NCBI GenBank assembly: GCA_017634975.1
Contig: JAGBMJ010000016.1
Coordinates: 1 to 64,000, forward strand
Reading direction: 5' to 3'
DNA: 64,000 nt
DNA from: Lachnospiraceae bacterium
GTDB lineage: Bacteria; Bacillota; Clostridia; Lachnospirales; Lachnospiraceae
Shown here: positions 2,717 through 36,179 of the stretch, one piece after another
Position numbering within the stretch: the stretch's first letter is position 1
Layout: the number at the start of each line of letters is the position of its first letter
Program-made: the position numbers and the translations under genes
The notes under the pieces: generated by a model
What the model was told of the DNA's origin: nothing
Database searches by the model: none
What the model saw: the letters and a program-made list of their open reading frames with translations, nothing else

Positions 2717-3649
2717 TTATCGCTTTTCGTACCAGATCGGAATGATACGCTTAAAACCATCGAAATCGGAAAGTGTCCTCTCAGCGCGTGTTACCATCCC
2801 GTCAATATCCCTTTGTCCGAACTTTTCCGCCCATTTTATGGAGAATAACGATGCCTGTGCAACATAAACTGCATTGGCAATCCAGAAATCCATCGGCACG
2901 GAATCGTTAAAATAGGCGTCAATCTGACCGATGCAATACGGGATGCTGACTTCTGCCCCGAAGCTTTCCAGCTTGCAAAACTCCTCGTAAGGGTCTCCGA
3001 CTTCCCAACGATTAAAATCAATGACGCCGATGGATGAATCCGCCCTGTAAATCAGATTTCCGGGATGAAAATCGCCGTGCAGATATACCGGCGGAACTTT
3101 CCAGATCCGGTCAATGTTCTCCTTCACATACCGGATCGCCGTCTCGTCATTCGGTATCCGTAAAGCTGATTCCTCATACCGCGAAAGCTGTAACAGTTTC
3201 TTCTCTTTCTTCGTGATACTTGGAATATCCACTTTATCTAACGGAATCCCATGAATCTTTCGCAAAATGCATCCGGCCTCCCGGCCAAGTCTGTACTGCT
3301 CCTCTTCCGAAAGCTTGGGAAGCGCCGTCTCCAAATCGCAGCCTTCAATCCACCGAAGAAGCATATAAACATTATGCCCTTTGTTGCACGCACCGAACGC
3401 CACCGGTGTCGACCTCGTGAATCCGAGTGTCGAAAACTTTTTAATTATTTCGTACTCTTTCTTCTTTTCATCGTATTGCTTAATGTCTGAGATCCGAAGA
3501 AGCAAATGCTCTCCGGCCGATGTTCTGATATGGTATTTTTCATCAGATGACCAACCCTTGTTGACCGGTTCCACCGACACCCATATTTCGCTGCATTTTA
3601 TGTCCGATATCCAAGGGTATCGTTCAAAAAGACTCTTTGAATACTGCAT
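2717..3649 (-). CDS. Aminoglycoside phosphotransferase-family (APH-fold) kinase
   Basis: A 310-residue APH-fold kinase. The N-lobe carries a YHIRTSAGEHLLLRIS strand with the ATP-anchoring basic residue replaced in part. The C-lobe has the catalytic loop VYLHGDFHPGNLIY and the metal-binding VIDFNRWEVGDPYEEFCK. Similar proteins are annotated as aminoglycoside or macrolide phosphotransferase-like, but most family members have unknown substrates. It is followed on the same strand by the zinc-ribbon gene and preceded by the GNAT gene at 3738. No membrane segment is seen, so a cytoplasmic location is expected. Confidence 0.85.
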   Translation of the reverse strand: MQYSKSLFERYPWISDIKCSEIWVSVEPVNKGWSSDEKYHIRTSAGEHLLLRISDIKQYDEKKKEYEIIKKFSTLGFTRSTPVAFGACNKGHNVYMLLRWIEGCDLETALPKLSEEEQYRLGREAGCILRKIHGIPLDKVDIPSITKKEKKLLQLSRYEESALRIPNDETAIRYVKENIDRIWKVPPVYLHGDFHPGNLIYRADSSIGVIDFNRWEVGDPYEEFCKLESFGAEVSIPYCIGQIDAYFNDSVPMDFWIANAVYVAQASLFSIKWAEKFGQRDIDGMVTRAERTLSDFDGFKRIIPIWYEKR

Positions 3650-5467: not shown

Positions 5468-6391
5468 TTAAAGCCCTTCTCTAAATCCGTCCATGGTTTC
5501 CTGCCACTTATTAAGCCAGTACAGCTGACCGTCTATAAAGCCTTCATCTATGCAGTCCATTCCATATATTTCAAGGATGGTGGCTTGTAACTGAAAATGT
5601 CTGATTGCAATCCAATACGGAAAAGAAAGGATTTCCTCGCGGCTCAACTTATGATAACCAGCATATCCCGAAAGAAATTCCCGATACACTTCCTTAGTAA
5701 GTTCAATATCTTTCTGCTTCAGATTAAAATAATCCGTCATGTCACACATAACCATGACATCGAACATAAGCGGAGCACAACAAGCAGTATCAAAATCCAA
5801 AAGATAAATCTTCCCATCCGCATTCTGCAACAAGTTTCCTCTGTGCAGATCTCCGTGGCAATTACCCCGAGGGAGGTTCTTAACCTTATCCCACAAACGC
5901 TCTCCCAGTTCCTCATACTCTTTAATGCGCGGGTAGTTCTTTTTACGAAGGAACTCAATATATCGACCTATAAAGAATTCTTTGTCACGGTAGACAAGCT
6001 CCGAGGGATACTCCTCCATCAATTGATGAAATCTGCCGACAAGCCTGCCTACTTCGGATGCACATTTTTCAAGTTCCGGCTCGTCTCCCTCAATGAAGTC
6101 CATGAGAACTATCAGGATCTTCTCCCCGTCAATTTCAGTTTCAAAGAAGGCTTCCCCGCTATTTGTAAGTATCATTTTAGGTACCGGGAACCCGTTTTCT
6201 TCCAGGTATCTCATAATGGATGCAGACTGTCTTGCTGTATCCGAAAAAGCCGATCCAATAACCTTAAGCAGATACTTAGACCTTCCATTGACAATATATG
6301 TAGTGGTGCCGCCTTCTCTTAATAATTCCAAAGACAGGGATTCTATTCCGTAATTCAATGTCAATATATCTTGCAAAGTCTTTTCATCCAT
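5468..6391 (-). CDS. Phosphotransferase (APH fold) family protein
   Basis: A 307-residue APH-fold kinase. The N-lobe includes TYIVNGRSKYLLKVIG, where the K would contact ATP, the hinge reads VLMDFIEGDEPE, and the C-lobe has GNCHGDLHRGNLLQ followed by YLLDFDTACCAPLMFDVMVM. The overall layout resembles homoserine kinase / thiamine kinase-like proteins of Clostridia. Its end is followed by a short ORF and the terminator at 5309. It lies 25 bases downstream of the DUF3021 gene, so it may be the last gene of the ABC/LytTR operon. Confidence 0.85.
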   Translation of the reverse strand: MDEKTLQDILTLNYGIESLSLELLREGGTTTYIVNGRSKYLLKVIGSAFSDTARQSASIMRYLEENGFPVPKMILTNSGEAFFETEIDGEKILIVLMDFIEGDEPELEKCASEVGRLVGRFHQLMEEYPSELVYRDKEFFIGRYIEFLRKKNYPRIKEYEELGERLWDKVKNLPRGNCHGDLHRGNLLQNADGKIYLLDFDTACCAPLMFDVMVMCDMTDYFNLKQKDIELTKEVYREFLSGYAGYHKLSREEILSFPYWIAIRHFQLQATILEIYGMDCIDEGFIDGQLYWLNKWQETMDGFREGL

Positions 6392-10276: not shown

Positions 10277-11866
10277 TTACCTCCACACATGCATTCCCGT
10301 TAATTGACTTACCATTTTCCATCCGAATCTGTTTTTTACCAGACTTTCCCTTTCAGGTCTGAACCCCAGATCATAATACACTTTGCAGGCAAGCCAGGTA
10401 TTGGTCTGGGTGTGGATCTTTACTTTTTCATAGCCCAATTCTTTCATAACTCCCAAAGTATATGTGATAAGAGGTTTTGAAAGGCCCTTACCCTGTTTCT
10501 CCTTCTTGACCGCAACCCAATGCAGCTGACCTTCTCCGTGTCTTCTGTCTCCATGAATATCATAGAATGCCGTAGCCGTCGCGATCTTCTCTCCGGTGCT
10601 GTTCTCTATAAATATCATTCTCTCCGAAAGTTCGTCTTCACGCCCACCATAATAACGTTCCCAGCATTCCTCACCATGCTTATAGTCAAGTACCTCTTCC
10701 GCAGACAATTCTATATTTATCCATGCCGTCTTATCACCCGGTTTATACTTCACGAAACGATAGCCCTCAGGCAAATCCATCTGAGGTATTTCCTGCAGTT
10801 CACCCTCAAACAAAAGATCAACATAGCACAGCATATTATCATGCGTCTTATACTTACACGGATCCGGAGCCTCAATACCGGCAAGTACACTGCATACATC
10901 TTCCTCGATATCCCTGAGATACTTAATGCGGTCTATCGTATTCTTAACCTCGTCTTCTCCCAACCGGATATCTTCTTCGTTTGATCCTTCCATTCCAAGT
11001 GCACGCCGGATGTTATACTCGAGCCATTCCAACCAGGTATAGGATATTCCAAACAATTCATCATAGGAACGAAATCCATTGTCATAGGCTGACAAATATC
11101 CTTCAAAAAAACCTGCAAGGTTTTCTTTGGAGTATTTACCATTTACCGTCCCTGCCCATTGAAGCGACAGATTGAGACAGGATGCGATCGGATTGCCTCT
11201 CTCAAGACATTCCAGGTCGATCACATATGCCTTGTCTTCACGCCACATGATGTTCTTAGGATCCATATCCGGATCATCTATCGCACTCATAGCAGGCAGC
11301 ATGCGTCTTGCGTTATTCATTTTATCCTGAGCTTCCCTAAGAAGAAGCAGATTATCAGTGATCAGCCCGGCAATGACACTTTTTTTCTTATCAGCCTCGG
11401 ATGCATATGCTTCAAAATCTATATCACTGACCTCAGGCTCTTCCGGCTCTGTATTCTGAGGATCAATCTTATGGACCCTTCCCAGGATCTCACCTGCCAT
11501 ATAGCATTGCTGCTTCGATATGGTGTTATAATCTGTAATGCTTCCTTCCTGCCATCGGAAAATATAATAATACCGTCCATCATCCTCTATCAACTTCTTT
11601 CCGTCAAAAGGAAGCGCCGGAACGATCGGAATCCCCTCTTTCTCTAAAATGCTCTCGAGCCCTTCCGCCCTTGCGTAATTATCCAGAACTCCCGGACGTT
11701 TCATAACCTCCGGATTCAGACATTTTACTGCATAGGATGCCGATTCCGTACTAACCTTATACATTTTATGCATAAGCCCGCCGGAGATCGGCTCTATGGT
11801 ACCGCATACATTCCCCAGTCCACATTTACGAAACAATGCGGATATTTTGTAACTTAGTTCACTCAT
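10277..11866 (-). CDS. Two-domain protein: APH-fold kinase fused to GNAT acetyltransferase
   Basis: A 529-residue fusion. Residues 1 to about 330 form an APH-fold kinase (YAVKCLNPEVM with the ATP-contacting K, a FRWQEGSITDY hinge, a catalytic loop, then YVIDLECLERGNP). Residues about 355-529 form a GNAT domain with QLHWVAVKKEKQGKGLSKPL, an acetyl-CoA loop of QGKGLS form, and VYYDLGFRPERE. In the catalytic loop the usual HxDxxxxN reads DPDMDPKN, so the His is Asp. The order is the reverse of the clinical AAC(6')-APH(2'') enzyme, and no common origin is implied. The two domains probably modify the same kind of small molecule, which is not known. Confidence 0.8.
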   Translation of the reverse strand: MSELSYKISALFRKCGLGNVCGTIEPISGGLMHKMYKVSTESASYAVKCLNPEVMKRPGVLDNYARAEGLESILEKEGIPIVPALPFDGKKLIEDDGRYYYIFRWQEGSITDYNTISKQQCYMAGEILGRVHKIDPQNTEPEEPEVSDIDFEAYASEADKKKSVIAGLITDNLLLLREAQDKMNNARRMLPAMSAIDDPDMDPKNIMWREDKAYVIDLECLERGNPIASCLNLSLQWAGTVNGKYSKENLAGFFEGYLSAYDNGFRSYDELFGISYTWLEWLEYNIRRALGMEGSNEEDIRLGEDEVKNTIDRIKYLRDIEEDVCSVLAGIEAPDPCKYKTHDNMLCYVDLLFEGELQEIPQMDLPEGYRFVKYKPGDKTAWINIELSAEEVLDYKHGEECWERYYGGREDELSERMIFIENSTGEKIATATAFYDIHGDRRHGEGQLHWVAVKKEKQGKGLSKPLITYTLGVMKELGYEKVKIHTQTNTWLACKVYYDLGFRPERESLVKNRFGWKMVSQLTGMHVWR

Positions 11867-32779: not shown

Positions 32780-32800
32780 ACCATTTGTTACACGACATAT

Positions 32801-32873
32801 AGCGCTATCGCCAAATGGTAAGGCAACGGACTCTGACTCCGTCATTTTCAAGGTTCGAATCCTTGTAGCGCTG
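32801..32873 (+). tRNA. tRNA-Gln (CTG anticodon)
   Basis: A 73-base cloverleaf. The seven-base acceptor stem AGCGCTA / TAGCGCT is perfect, the T-arm loop is GGTTCGAATCC, and the anticodon loop CTCTGAC carries CTG, which reads CAG. The CCA end is not encoded. It has its own promoter and terminator, so it is a single-gene unit. No integrase lies next to it. Confidence 0.95.
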
Positions 32874-32876
32874 TGA

Positions 32877-32923: not shown

Positions 32924-33874
32924 TCACAGGTAGCAGTTGACATCCTTAAGATCCAGGCGGCCGGTCTGTGCATAGGTTACGCAGCGGGCACCGCCGGCAC
33001 ACTTATAAAAGTATTTGCAGCTCACGCAGTCTTGCGGGAAAGAGGGTGCCGCCAGTTTCTTCATGATCTCGTTTTCTTCCAGAAATGTTTGCAGCTGTGA
33101 CACTTCCCGGATATTGCCGATCACAAACGGAAGTCTTCGACACGCCATCATATCGCCGTTTGCCAGCAGAATCAGCAGCCGCTTGCCGGCACTGCATTCA
33201 TATCCGCAGCCACCTTCCGGGATCCATTCCAACGCACGGCTGTTGCTGATAAAAGGATACCTCTTAGCCAGTTTTGCCGCCGTCCGGCTCACATCCTGAA
33301 ACTGCTCTGTGGTCAGATACTGCGCTGGATCATCGGTCACCACACGATCCCACCACAGTTTATCCACGTGATGACGGGCGCACACTGCGGCGACAGCCTT
33401 CATCTCCCGACAGTTCTGCTGCATTACGGTAAAGGATACGAGCACCTTCACCCCCTGTTCTTTCAGCCGGTCAATCCCATACAGAGCCTTCGGAAAACTG
33501 CCCGTCCCGCGGATGCTCTCATGTACTTTTTCTCCTCCATCCAGACTGACCTGCACAAAGACCGGTTTCAGTTCCGCGATCGCCCGGGCCTCTTTTGCAT
33601 CGATCATTGTCCCGTTGGTCAGGATCCCCAGGCGGATTCCCCGCCTGCGGATCTCCGAGGCAATCCTGAAAAAATCCGGATGTAACAGCGGTTCGCCCCC
33701 GGTCAGATTGATCTGTCCCTCAAAGCCCTTTGCACGGATATACTCCTCATACTTATCCAGTGTACCCACCATTTCCGGATACACCATCACACAGTGACAA
33801 TCTTCCTGATAACAATGGATGCAATGCAGATTGCATTCATGCGTGATATGCCATTGCAGGTAGTGCCGGTACAT
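32924..33874 (-). CDS. Radical SAM/SPASM enzyme next to a Cys-rich tail protein
   Basis: A 316-residue radical SAM enzyme. The cluster motif is CNLHCIHC (CxxxCxxC) at about residues 14-21, followed by the GGE motif LTGGEPLLH. The C-terminal SPASM-like region has Cys residues in GCGYECSAGK, MMACRRLPF, CVSCKYFYKCAGGARC and DVNCYL, enough for two auxiliary 4Fe-4S clusters. Enzymes of this architecture install thioether or C-C links in peptides, or modify proteins. Its start lies two bases after the stop of the Cys-tailed membrane protein, and its ribosome binding site (GGAGGT) is inside the Gly codons of that tail, so the two are tightly coupled. Confidence 0.9.
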   Translation of the reverse strand: MYRHYLQWHITHECNLHCIHCYQEDCHCVMVYPEMVGTLDKYEEYIRAKGFEGQINLTGGEPLLHPDFFRIASEIRRRGIRLGILTNGTMIDAKEARAIAELKPVFVQVSLDGGEKVHESIRGTGSFPKALYGIDRLKEQGVKVLVSFTVMQQNCREMKAVAAVCARHHVDKLWWDRVVTDDPAQYLTTEQFQDVSRTAAKLAKRYPFISNSRALEWIPEGGCGYECSAGKRLLILLANGDMMACRRLPFVIGNIREVSQLQTFLEENEIMKKLAAPSFPQDCVSCKYFYKCAGGARCVTYAQTGRLDLKDVNCYL

Positions 33875-33876
33875 AC

Positions 33877-35412
33877 TCAGTCTGCACCTCCGCCGCCGCA
33901 GCCGGAACAGGAGGAACAGCTGGAGCAGGAAGACCCACCCGAAGAAGATGAGGTATGTGCTGCATGATACGAATCGTATGCCCGGTTAGAACTGCTGTCC
34001 AGCATATAATAGAAATATACGGTATCATCATTCAGATAACCTTCCCGGTTGTCATATACCACCTGACCGGTCGTCATGATCATAAATACATCATAGTGCG
34101 ACATATTTCCCTGCAGCAGGCGTGTAATGGTGATCGTATCCTTTGCATATCCCGCTGCCAGGAAGCACTCCTTCCAGGCTTTTTTATATTGACCGTATTC
34201 TTTTTTGTCCAGTTTTCGTATTACAGCTTCCGTAAATCGTTTGTTCAGCGTGATACAAAAGCTTCCGAAGGTCTCGTATTGTACCTGGATCGTTTCCAAC
34301 AGTTTATTCTTGCTCAGACGCCCGTCTGCATCCATTGCATTCTGCCACACAAAAGTACACATATCACTGTCTGCCGGACCGGTACAGCGCTCTTTTATTT
34401 CTGCAAAATGATCATTGTCGGCATCCACCACGATCACTCCTCTGCGGATCATATCCGCAAAATAGGTACTGAAGAGTTTGGAATAATGCACAGTGCTTCC
34501 GCCATAGGCAAATTCAAAAGGATCCAGCTTTCCTGCCCATCCTGCAATAATACTCCGGATATAATTCGGATCATTGCTGACAGCCTTTTTGATACGGATC
34601 GATCTTGCGATCAGGTATATGAGTGCTCCTACCAGTACCAGCGGGAACATCAAAAATACTACGCCGATGAAGATCCACAAAAGAATATCGCTTCCGTCAT
34701 CTCCGTCCGCCGGATTGTTGAGATCTTCCGCATCGATCGATACTGCACCGGTAAACGTCACCTGGTCCATACGGATCTTTACTTTATACATACCGTTGCT
34801 GTCGGATGCCGTGATCACCGTCACATTACCGTTGTCCTGCACGCTGTCCGAACACGAAGCATAACGCAGCTCATTTACGGCACCGTCCGGTGTCTGCACC
34901 GTTACTTTTACATGATCCACTGTCTTGGAAAAATTCGCGCCGATCACGCGATAGGTAAACAGATAATAGGAATTGTCCACATACTTGACCGCATCGTAGA
35001 TCCGATATCCGATCTCGTAGGTTCGGGTCACATTCTGACTGGCTTTATAGCAGTCGATCTCATACCCCATAGATGAACTATCCAGATGAAAGGTATCATC
35101 CGGGCGTCCGTTCGTATCTTCCGTTACGCTGCACTCCACGCCGTCGATCTTAACATACAGACTGCCCTGATCCAGCTCCACGGTATCCTCTTTACCGGCG
35201 TTGGTCACGATATCCTTGTAAAATCTGGTAAAGGATCCCTCTTCAAAACGCACCGTCCAGTATTCGACCACATCCGCAGTACCGTCCTCATGGACCGTGA
35301 TCGTAAACTCCGCTTCCGGTATACGGTAGCTGGAGGCCTGCGCTTTTAACGGACTGCAGACACTCACCAGTAGAAATATGGCCGCAAAAGCAAATGTCCA
35401 AAAACGTTTCAT
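33877..35412 (-). CDS. DUF2207-like membrane protein with a CxxCxxCxxC-glycine C-terminal tail
   Basis: A 511-residue protein. A signal peptide (residues 1-27, ending AQASS) leads to an extracellular domain of about 210 residues of the DUF2207 kind (ITVHEDGTADVVEYWTVRFE and FSKTVDHVKVTVQTPDGAV). A membrane segment lies at 243-268, followed by a cytoplasmic part of about 210 residues. The last 35 residues are Ser/Gly-rich with four Cys at 496, 499, 502 and 505 and end CGGGGAD. The tail would be in the cytoplasm, where the radical SAM enzyme encoded directly downstream could reach it. DUF2207 proteins often end in Gly-rich tails; the regular Cys spacing plus the enzyme is the notable point. Confidence 0.82.
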   Translation of the reverse strand: MKRFWTFAFAAIFLLVSVCSPLKAQASSYRIPEAEFTITVHEDGTADVVEYWTVRFEEGSFTRFYKDIVTNAGKEDTVELDQGSLYVKIDGVECSVTEDTNGRPDDTFHLDSSSMGYEIDCYKASQNVTRTYEIGYRIYDAVKYVDNSYYLFTYRVIGANFSKTVDHVKVTVQTPDGAVNELRYASCSDSVQDNGNVTVITASDSNGMYKVKIRMDQVTFTGAVSIDAEDLNNPADGDDGSDILLWIFIGVVFLMFPLVLVGALIYLIARSIRIKKAVSNDPNYIRSIIAGWAGKLDPFEFAYGGSTVHYSKLFSTYFADMIRRGVIVVDADNDHFAEIKERCTGPADSDMCTFVWQNAMDADGRLSKNKLLETIQVQYETFGSFCITLNKRFTEAVIRKLDKKEYGQYKKAWKECFLAAGYAKDTITITRLLQGNMSHYDVFMIMTTGQVVYDNREGYLNDDTVYFYYMLDSSSNRAYDSYHAAHTSSSSGGSSCSSCSSCSGCGGGGAD

Positions 35413-35435
35413 AGATGTTCTCCCCCTCTTGTTCT

Positions 35436-35846
35436 CTAATATTCCCTCCGCAGGAACAGATATGCCATGATCGGTCCTTCAAGACTTACCCCAAGCATCA
35501 TAACACCAAATAACAGGATCAGCTTCACCAGCTCCTCCGGTGAACGTCCGCTCTGCGCAAAGGAACGATGAAACATCGCTGCCACCAGGATCATACAGCC
35601 ACCATATAACAGGATCCCGGAGATCTTCGGCACAAATACATAACGCCCGTCTTTTTCCGTAAAGGTATAATCGTAATACCTTCCACCTCTTCTCGCGGTT
35701 CGGTACATATATACAATAACCCCTTCTTCCGTCTCCTCCACGTACGGCTCGTGTATCCGGTTCACCAGATATTGTCCCACATAAGCCATGATAAGCACTC
35801 CCAGAACCACCAAAAGCATATAAGACCATACACTATCCTGAAACAC
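35436..35846 (-). CDS. Hypothetical membrane protein
   Basis: A 136-residue protein with a membrane segment at about 8-26, a central soluble part rich in Tyr and Arg (MYRTARRGGRYYDYTF), and two further segments at about 76-95 and 108-130. I recognise no family. It lies 23 bases upstream of the Cys-tailed protein on the same strand and 19 bases downstream of the 71-residue gene, so it is part of the same likely operon. Confidence 0.65.
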   Translation of the reverse strand: MFQDSVWSYMLLVVLGVLIMAYVGQYLVNRIHEPYVEETEEGVIVYMYRTARRGGRYYDYTFTEKDGRYVFVPKISGILLYGGCMILVAAMFHRSFAQSGRSPEELVKLILLFGVMMLGVSLEGPIMAYLFLRREY

Positions 35847-35865
35847 TACTATCCCCCCTTTACCG

Positions 35866-36081
35866 TTAATACCGTATAATATAATAGATCACATATACCC
35901 AGCTCAGCAATCCATGTATGATCGCCAGCCCCACCGAATGCCAGTTGGTATAGCTGATCACCATCGCCAGTGCCACTCCGAAAGAAATGCCTGTCTTGGC
36001 CGCTGCTTTTCCACCTTCGGATCTCTTTCTGGTCACTCTTCTGCCGTCTTCTTCAACGATCTCCACTTCTTTATATGCCAT
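35866..36081 (-). CDS. Small membrane protein
   Basis: A 71-residue protein. A charged start (EVEIVEEDGRRVTRKRSEGG) is followed by two hydrophobic stretches at about 32-46 and 50-69. It has no family I can name. It is the first gene of the likely four-gene unit that ends in the radical SAM enzyme. Confidence 0.6.
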   Translation of the reverse strand: MAYKEVEIVEEDGRRVTRKRSEGGKAAAKTGISFGVALAMVISYTNWHSVGLAIIHGLLSWVYVIYYIIRY

Positions 36082-36179
36082 AGTTCATTCCTTCCCTTCT
36101 ATCTTCTGACATTATTATATCCGAAAACATGCCGCCTTTCCAGCAAAACGGCATTGCATTTCCGCTACTCTGCAGAGCC

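Follow-up and report, generated by a model that had tools for sequence, protein, structure and literature searches.

Why should a radical S-adenosylmethionine (SAM) enzyme of the SPASM type, a class known chiefly as peptide maturases with some soluble protein targets besides, be encoded directly behind a membrane protein that ends in regularly spaced cysteines? The question is raised by four genes, all on the minus strand (35866–36081; 35436–35846, with a GTG start; 33877–35412; 32924–33874), within the window, a 64,000-nt stretch of DNA from a Lachnospiraceae bacterium (GenBank assembly GCA_017634975.1, contig JAGBMJ010000016.1, positions 1 to 64,000). The third gene specifies a DUF2207 protein and the fourth the enzyme. 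Sequence comparison indicates, with a probability of roughly 0.8, that the two form an enzyme–substrate pair in which the tail of the membrane protein is modified by the enzyme. The pairing is conserved among relatives and is absent from the unlinked DUF2207 genes sampled, and the tail is under selection as protein; that modification occurs, with the chemistry and use considered below, we infer from these features. The parts of the locus that carry the argument are as follows.

33877..35412, minus strand: DUF2207 membrane protein of 511 residues, the proposed substrate (PF09972 at 62.2 bits against a cut-off of 24.4; hydropathy; Lys/Arg after the transmembrane segment). Its probable divisions are a likely signal peptide (about 1–26), an outer domain (about 27–242), one transmembrane segment (about 243–261), an inner domain and the tail.
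33880..33927, minus strand: C-terminal tail CSSCSSCSGCGGGGAD, residues 496–511, the proposed site of modification (codon comparison).
33886..33891, minus strand: GGAGGT ribosome-binding site of the enzyme gene, within the codons of the Gly tail (seen directly, 11-base spacing).
32924..33874, minus strand: radical SAM/SPASM enzyme of 316 residues, the proposed tail-modifying enzyme (family matches, alignment, tree).
33812..33835, minus strand: CX3CX2C motif (C14, C18, C21) for the radical SAM [4Fe-4S] cluster (alignment).
32933..33196, minus strand: SPASM-type auxiliary cysteines C227, C245, C283, C286, C292, C298 and C314, with the variant spacing CX2CX5CX5C (alignment).

The junction between the two genes is as the initial annotation had read it. 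Cys 496, 499, 502 and 505 are followed by Gly506–509, Ala510, Asp511 and a TGA terminator, and after the two bases GT comes the ATG of the enzyme gene, whose ribosome-binding site lies inside the Gly codons. Neither PF20990, the DUF2207 C-terminal domain that is present in the pairs at L012 and L013, nor TIGR04222 (cut-off 43 bits) has a match at E 1 in the window protein. Simple hydropathy gives a start resembling a signal peptide and a strong hydrophobic segment at 243–261 (with four Lys/Arg in the next 15 residues), and none later. The single transmembrane segment and the Lys/Arg charge place the tail in the cytoplasm alongside the enzyme, consistent with the earlier proposal for its location. 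PMC10457818 predicts for DUF2207 proteins an extracellular N-terminus and an inner C-terminus (printed ‘intercellular’, here taken as intracellular) with a Gly/Ser stretch.

The assignment of the enzyme is firm at the level of the superfamily, PF04055 being matched at 85.2 bits (cut-off 29.5), and the CX3CX2C motif is present in all 20 enzymes checked. The SPASM model, PF13186, is narrowly missed (20.5 bits, cut-off 21.5). The SPASM pattern consists of C-X9-15-G-X4-C, then a CX2CX5C set and then a last Cys; with the variant spacing CX2CX5CX5C it is found in all 15 rows of the window-enzyme group (14 tail-linked enzymes and that of L058), and the auxiliary Cys set is likewise conserved in nine aligned enzymes and in all 15 of those rows. 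The spacing is instead CX2CX5CX2C in the enzymes of L059, L060 and L159 and in the ACGX enzyme of L008, and CX2CX5CX3C in that of L160. No NCBIfam family reached its cut-off among the matches listed for the window enzyme (25 of 87), of which the top two were SbtM (TIGR04082; 152.5 bits, cut-off 350) and ACGX (TIGR04340; 130 bits, cut-off 400). The SbtM match spans residues 6–302 and begins at profile position 201 of 516; the core of the window enzyme starts near residue 6, and there is therefore no N-terminal extension able to hold an RRE. Five tail-linked enzymes tested against ACGX scored 130 to 147 bits, all under the cut-off, while ACGX is the best match of the outgroup enzymes L059, L159 and L008:3633. 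[The last of these, L008:3633–4694, is a true ACGX-system radical SAM gene (583.5 bits) situated 3.8 kb upstream of a tailed DUF2207 gene.]

Is the arrangement in the window a chance neighbourhood? A scan of named genomes, in which the closest relatives of the window enzyme are Lachnospiraceae assemblies from sheep, yielded seven relatives of 52 to 88% identity (L005–L011), and all seven directly follow a frame ending CSSC...CGGGGAD with 4 to 6 Cys. The DUF2207 partner is visible for six of them; L011 starts at a contig end, with just the end of the partner's tail to be seen and an enzyme frame that ends early. Two further enzymes, 36–39% identical to that of the window, follow full DUF2207 proteins ending CSSCGGGGSW. 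With the more distant cases described below, the enzyme gene is immediately preceded by a frame with a Cys tail in 15 pairs (the window, L005–L011, L012, L013 and L053–L057); L164–L166, which resemble the species of L005–L007, and L156, which resembles that of L008, are left out of this count. The genes that flank the pair vary from locus to locus, except among near relatives.

The tail is conserved where the remainder of the protein is not. Among nine aligned DUF2207 rows the bodies fall to as little as 19% identity, yet the ends remain CSxCGGGG, and the L010 protein has lost most of its inner domain and retained the tail. Pairwise comparison of the last 16 codons in seven related rows gave 159 synonymous and 10 non-synonymous differences, with 167 identical comparisons, which argues that the tail is kept as protein. 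That it is a mere by-product of housing a ribosome-binding site was considered and rejected: the Cys repeat is upstream of that site and is kept as protein. A query with the last 41 residues disclosed no further copy in the genome, returning only itself (E 2e-18) and a worthless match (E 1.43, with an internal stop).

The specificity of the pairing was surveyed in a sample of 391 genomes of the window's class, with a profile threshold for the enzyme of E 1e-50 and at most 5 candidates scored per genome. DUF2207 is present in 141 of these genomes, and the enzyme profile gave 10 hits in nine; seven of the hits follow a Cys-tailed membrane protein. At L058, one of the other hits, a 129-residue frame ending GCGSSCSGCST plus an Asn run is found 1.6 kb before the enzyme, behind another radical SAM-like gene (L058:2364–7113). 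For DUF2207 itself at least 150 rows were listed, two of them enzyme-linked (the window and G153). The 148 others, two of which are one gene, comprise 126 genes that were fetched and 21 rows that were not; reading by strand gave 118 fetched genes whose 3′ end is closed, 4 that are truncated there and 4 lacking a usable frame. CxxCxxC occurs in the last 60 residues of none of the 118 readable unlinked proteins, and none of the 118 genes has such an enzyme in its fetched flank (a flank that is short in the 3.5-kb loci). Both of the linked genes carry the repeat (2/2 against 0/118 within the class sample; Fisher p = 1.4e-4). The repeat is lacking, too, in L163, L167 and L168, three additional unlinked proteins from the same order. 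Ends rich in Gly/Ser, but without the Cys repeat, are found in 80 of the 118, which fits the earlier suggestion that a Gly-rich tail may predate the enzyme. Within the window's genus a DUF2207 match is confined to 4 of 35 genomes. [Elsewhere, G524 has one DUF2207 match, E 6.4e-6, whose position is not listed, and a match at G364:C9:30605–31159 falls within an open frame given as 24,765 aa long, either a giant gene or an assembly oddity.]

The inference of the initial annotation that the enzyme acts on the tail thus stands up to the co-occurrence seen in other genomes; the range of targets extends beyond the DUF2207 proteins that it considered. The partners of the seven tail-linked hits in the class are two DUF2207 proteins, two proteins over the TIGR04222 cut-off (L053 at 47.0 bits and L054 at 46.1) and three, at L055, L056 and L057, for which no family passed its cut-off. 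The L053 partner also matches the DUF2207 C-terminal model at 21.7 bits, below the cut-off of 33, and this sub-threshold match raises the possibility that the partner proteins are distant kin. TIGR04222 was seen in three of the 391 class genomes, in two of them over the cut-off, and all three proteins have a Cys-repeat tail and stand directly before a radical SAM gene. At L160 (5407–8462) a TIGR04222-like protein (23.3 bits) with ten ACHS-type repeats at its end is encoded by a gene that overlaps one for a 442-residue SPASM radical SAM enzyme of a different kind, which makes it a second type of enzyme next to a membrane protein with Cys repeats. [Downstream of the pairs at L053 and L054 there is, in the opposite strand, a similar gene, presumably transketolase-like; both genomes are of one family, and shared descent may explain the likeness.]

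These partners bear on the alternative that the tail binds a metal or cluster unmodified, the enzyme having another target and the two genes being only translationally coupled. CxxC repeats do bind metals in many proteins, the tail codons double as the ribosome-binding site of the enzyme, and L058 has a related enzyme with no tailed neighbour. Such a tail would, however, leave unexplained why the repeat is restricted, among the DUF2207 genes read, to those linked to the enzyme, why it is common to DUF2207, TIGR04222 and unnamed membrane proteins beside related enzymes, and why another SPASM enzyme follows the ACHS-repeat protein of L160. An unmodified tail is accordingly considered unlikely.

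If the tail is instead a substrate for the enzyme, which residues are altered? The tail repeat of L057, CGGCGGCGGCGGCGGCGGCGD, has nothing but Cys and Gly ahead of its final Asp, from which it follows that any reaction shared by every tail has to draw on Cys and/or Gly; a need for Ser, Thr or aromatic side chains rules a reaction out as the shared one. The modified residue must then be Cys and/or Gly if the reaction is identical in all pairs, and modification in the cytoplasm is most likely at Cys. The number of Cys per tail ranges from 2 to 8 across the pairs and includes 5 and 7, odd counts that speak against obligatory Cys pairs.

Two chemistries have been weighed. One, tentatively entertained, has each Cys converted to a thiooxazole by a four-electron oxidation in the manner of SbtM, making the tail a metal-chelating strip, the anaerobe's equivalent of MNIO-modified bufferins and TIGR04222 tails. 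According to a review, SbtM converts Cys to thiooxazole with the loss of four H (PMC11002830). SbtM is the top NCBIfam match listed for the window enzyme, though its score is far under the cut-off and is no test of chemistry, and other members of the group score ACGX equally or higher. A change at each Cys suits the odd as well as the even counts, and the L057 repeat supplies just Cys and Gly. MNIO genes (PF05114) are in none of the ten tail-bearing genomes. At L012 (4623–9468) the tailed DUF2207 gene diverges from genes for a copper P-type ATPase (577.1 bits against a cut-off of 397) and for a repressor resembling CsoR/RicR (73.6 bits against 175); such copper genes were spotted by eye, without systematic search, at this one locus of the 15.

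In the other chemistry, also tentative, thioethers would link the sulfur of Cys to the alpha carbon of Gly or Ser, as in sactipeptides, and so fold the tail into a knot. Among PDB sequences the window enzyme matches the sactisynthase SkfB best (E 3.4e-13), and SPASM enzymes that crosslink Cys-containing peptides are the commonest characterised kind. Gly would, however, be the sole possible acceptor within the L057 repeat, and among the frames of at least 55 aa listed beside the pair no peptide, protease or exporter gene recurs (shorter frames were not looked at). Thiooxazole and thioether formation are rated about equal. The thioether or C–C crosslinking put forward in the initial annotation is therefore possible, but as one of at least two candidate reactions.

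With either chemistry, the DUF2207 protein would be synthesised like any other membrane protein, with the N-terminal domain on the outside and, on the grounds of hydropathy and charge, the C-terminal tail in the cytoplasm. There the tail would be met by the enzyme translated from the ribosome-binding site within the tail codons, and its residues would be oxidatively modified in series. The resulting membrane protein would carry, at the inner face of the membrane, a short polymeric run of modified residues. Such a tail might bind a soft metal such as copper, or serve redox chemistry; both uses are speculative. A broader scheme, which is the more doubtful part, is that a radical SAM pathway in anaerobic gut bacteria builds polymer-like tails of modified Cys (e.g. 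serial thiooxazoles) onto DUF2207 and TIGR04222 membrane proteins, an oxygen-free counterpart of the MNIO–TIGR04222 arrangement for which at least two SPASM types, that of the window group and the L160 enzyme with its ACHS tail, may have been recruited.

Several points weigh against the modification of the tail by the enzyme. The pairing does not reach all relatives. A tailed gene immediately before the enzyme is lacking for three of the 10 class hits: L058, whose enzyme groups with the tail-linked ones, and the outgroup members L059 and L060. Likewise L159, another outgroup enzyme and the sole non-self match of a phylum search, has no tailed neighbour. The limit of 5 scored candidates per genome may have caused some enzymes to be overlooked. 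The tail of L013 holds two Cys only. TIGR04222 tails are predicted to be outside the cytoplasm in PMC12452194, and the window topology comes from simple hydropathy. The records of L005–L010 are metagenome assemblies. The source genome of the window (4.36 Mb in 147 contigs, completeness 99.13%) has a contamination of 7.46%, and its contig could be foreign; the presence of a tailed protein of the same kind in 3 further genomes of the genus speaks against this. More generally, co-occurrence, here known from sequence, does not prove catalysis.

The tree sets a further limit. The branch joining the 15 rows of the group is supported 52/52, and a single clade for these enzymes is not established; the window and L005–L010 do form one clade (100/100), so the 15 pairs are not 15 independent events. 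Counting one recently spread cassette repeatedly would produce such a clade, and the nesting of a Coriobacteriaceae row among Lachnospiraceae suggests transfer. L010 and L011 are titled Actinomycetota, and the place of L010 among Lachnospiraceae in the enzyme tree suggests that the pair was transferred between lineages. A sampling artefact of this sort is nevertheless very improbable, since tailed proteins are also followed, in other gene contexts, by enzymes of 36–37% identity from the same family and by more distant enzymes from four further families of the class. On the tree the label ‘tail’ takes 2 changes, against an average of 5.3 in shuffles and an equally low number in 0 of 500.

The enzyme and its proposed substrate are preceded by two small genes and a promoter-like site.

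35436..35846, minus strand: membrane protein of 136 residues, a local operon partner (kin gene only in L005 and in L164, apparently of the L005 species).
35866..36081, minus strand: membrane protein of 71 residues, a local operon partner (no relative found in L003–L011).
36114..36142, minus strand: promoter-like sequence TGGAAA-17-TATAAT preceding the four genes (weak, since 4 such sites were found where shuffled sequence leads one to expect 6.0).

The initial annotation had these two genes completing the unit. Among L005–L010, however, the 136-residue gene is only in L005 and the 71-residue gene in none, and a conserved four-gene unit is rejected, the small membrane genes being absent from L006–L010. 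On the other side, a plus-strand tRNA-Gln (CTG) gene (32800–32874) lies some 50 bases from where the enzyme gene ends and faces it. Far from the locus, four minus-strand frames between 147 and 11866 (147–1118, 2717–3649, 5468–6391 and 10277–11866) are taken, from their translations and with no search made, to specify aminoglycoside-phosphotransferase-type kinases.

A membrane-protein tail as natural target would, if the proposal is correct, widen the range of radical SAM/SPASM enzymes. The pairing would offer a handle on the role of DUF2207 tails, with a repeat that lends itself to expression and assay, and it links an open in silico suggestion about MNIO enzymes to a second, oxygen-independent enzyme class. 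In the literature searched, which had most subscription journals outside it, neither a DUF2207–radical SAM pairing nor a membrane-protein-tail target was found, and the claim to novelty is a weak one.

How does the pair compare with known systems? Sactipeptide and ranthipeptide maturases have short peptides as their substrates and often carry an RRE domain. Those such as SkfB, PapB and SCIFF maturases are related to the window enzyme by sequence; the partner here is a 511-residue membrane protein, and neither a short precursor nor an RRE in the enzyme was found (the search did not extend to very short frames or to an RRE encoded separately). Cys-directed chemistry is that of SbtM, the substrate of which is a peptide and the N-terminal part of which is missing from the window enzyme. 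From the ACGX system the tail-linked enzymes differ in their sub-threshold scores and in having CX5C rather than CX2C after the third Cys of the SPASM set. DUF2207 proteins of the ordinary kind, among them SMU.243 of Streptococcus mutans, have the same N-terminal domain and, as predicted in PMC10457818, an inner C-terminus with a Gly/Ser stretch; the 118 readable unlinked genes, a set that does not include SMU.243, lack both the Cys repeat and, in their fetched flanks, such an enzyme. The nearest parallel is the in silico proposal, in PMC12452194, that MNIO enzymes act on the C-terminal Ser/Gly/Cys tails of TIGR04222 membrane proteins. There too the gene of a Cys-modifying enzyme is beside that of a tailed membrane protein, and two partners in the present set are over the TIGR04222 cut-off. 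The words rSAM, SPASM and DUF2207 are absent from the main text of that paper. The enzyme here is radical SAM/SPASM, with PF05114 in none of ten tail-bearing genomes, and by analogy an oxygen-independent enzyme seems to take the place of MNIO. The arrangement is best described as a maturase–substrate pair in which the enzyme belongs to another class and the target is a membrane protein.

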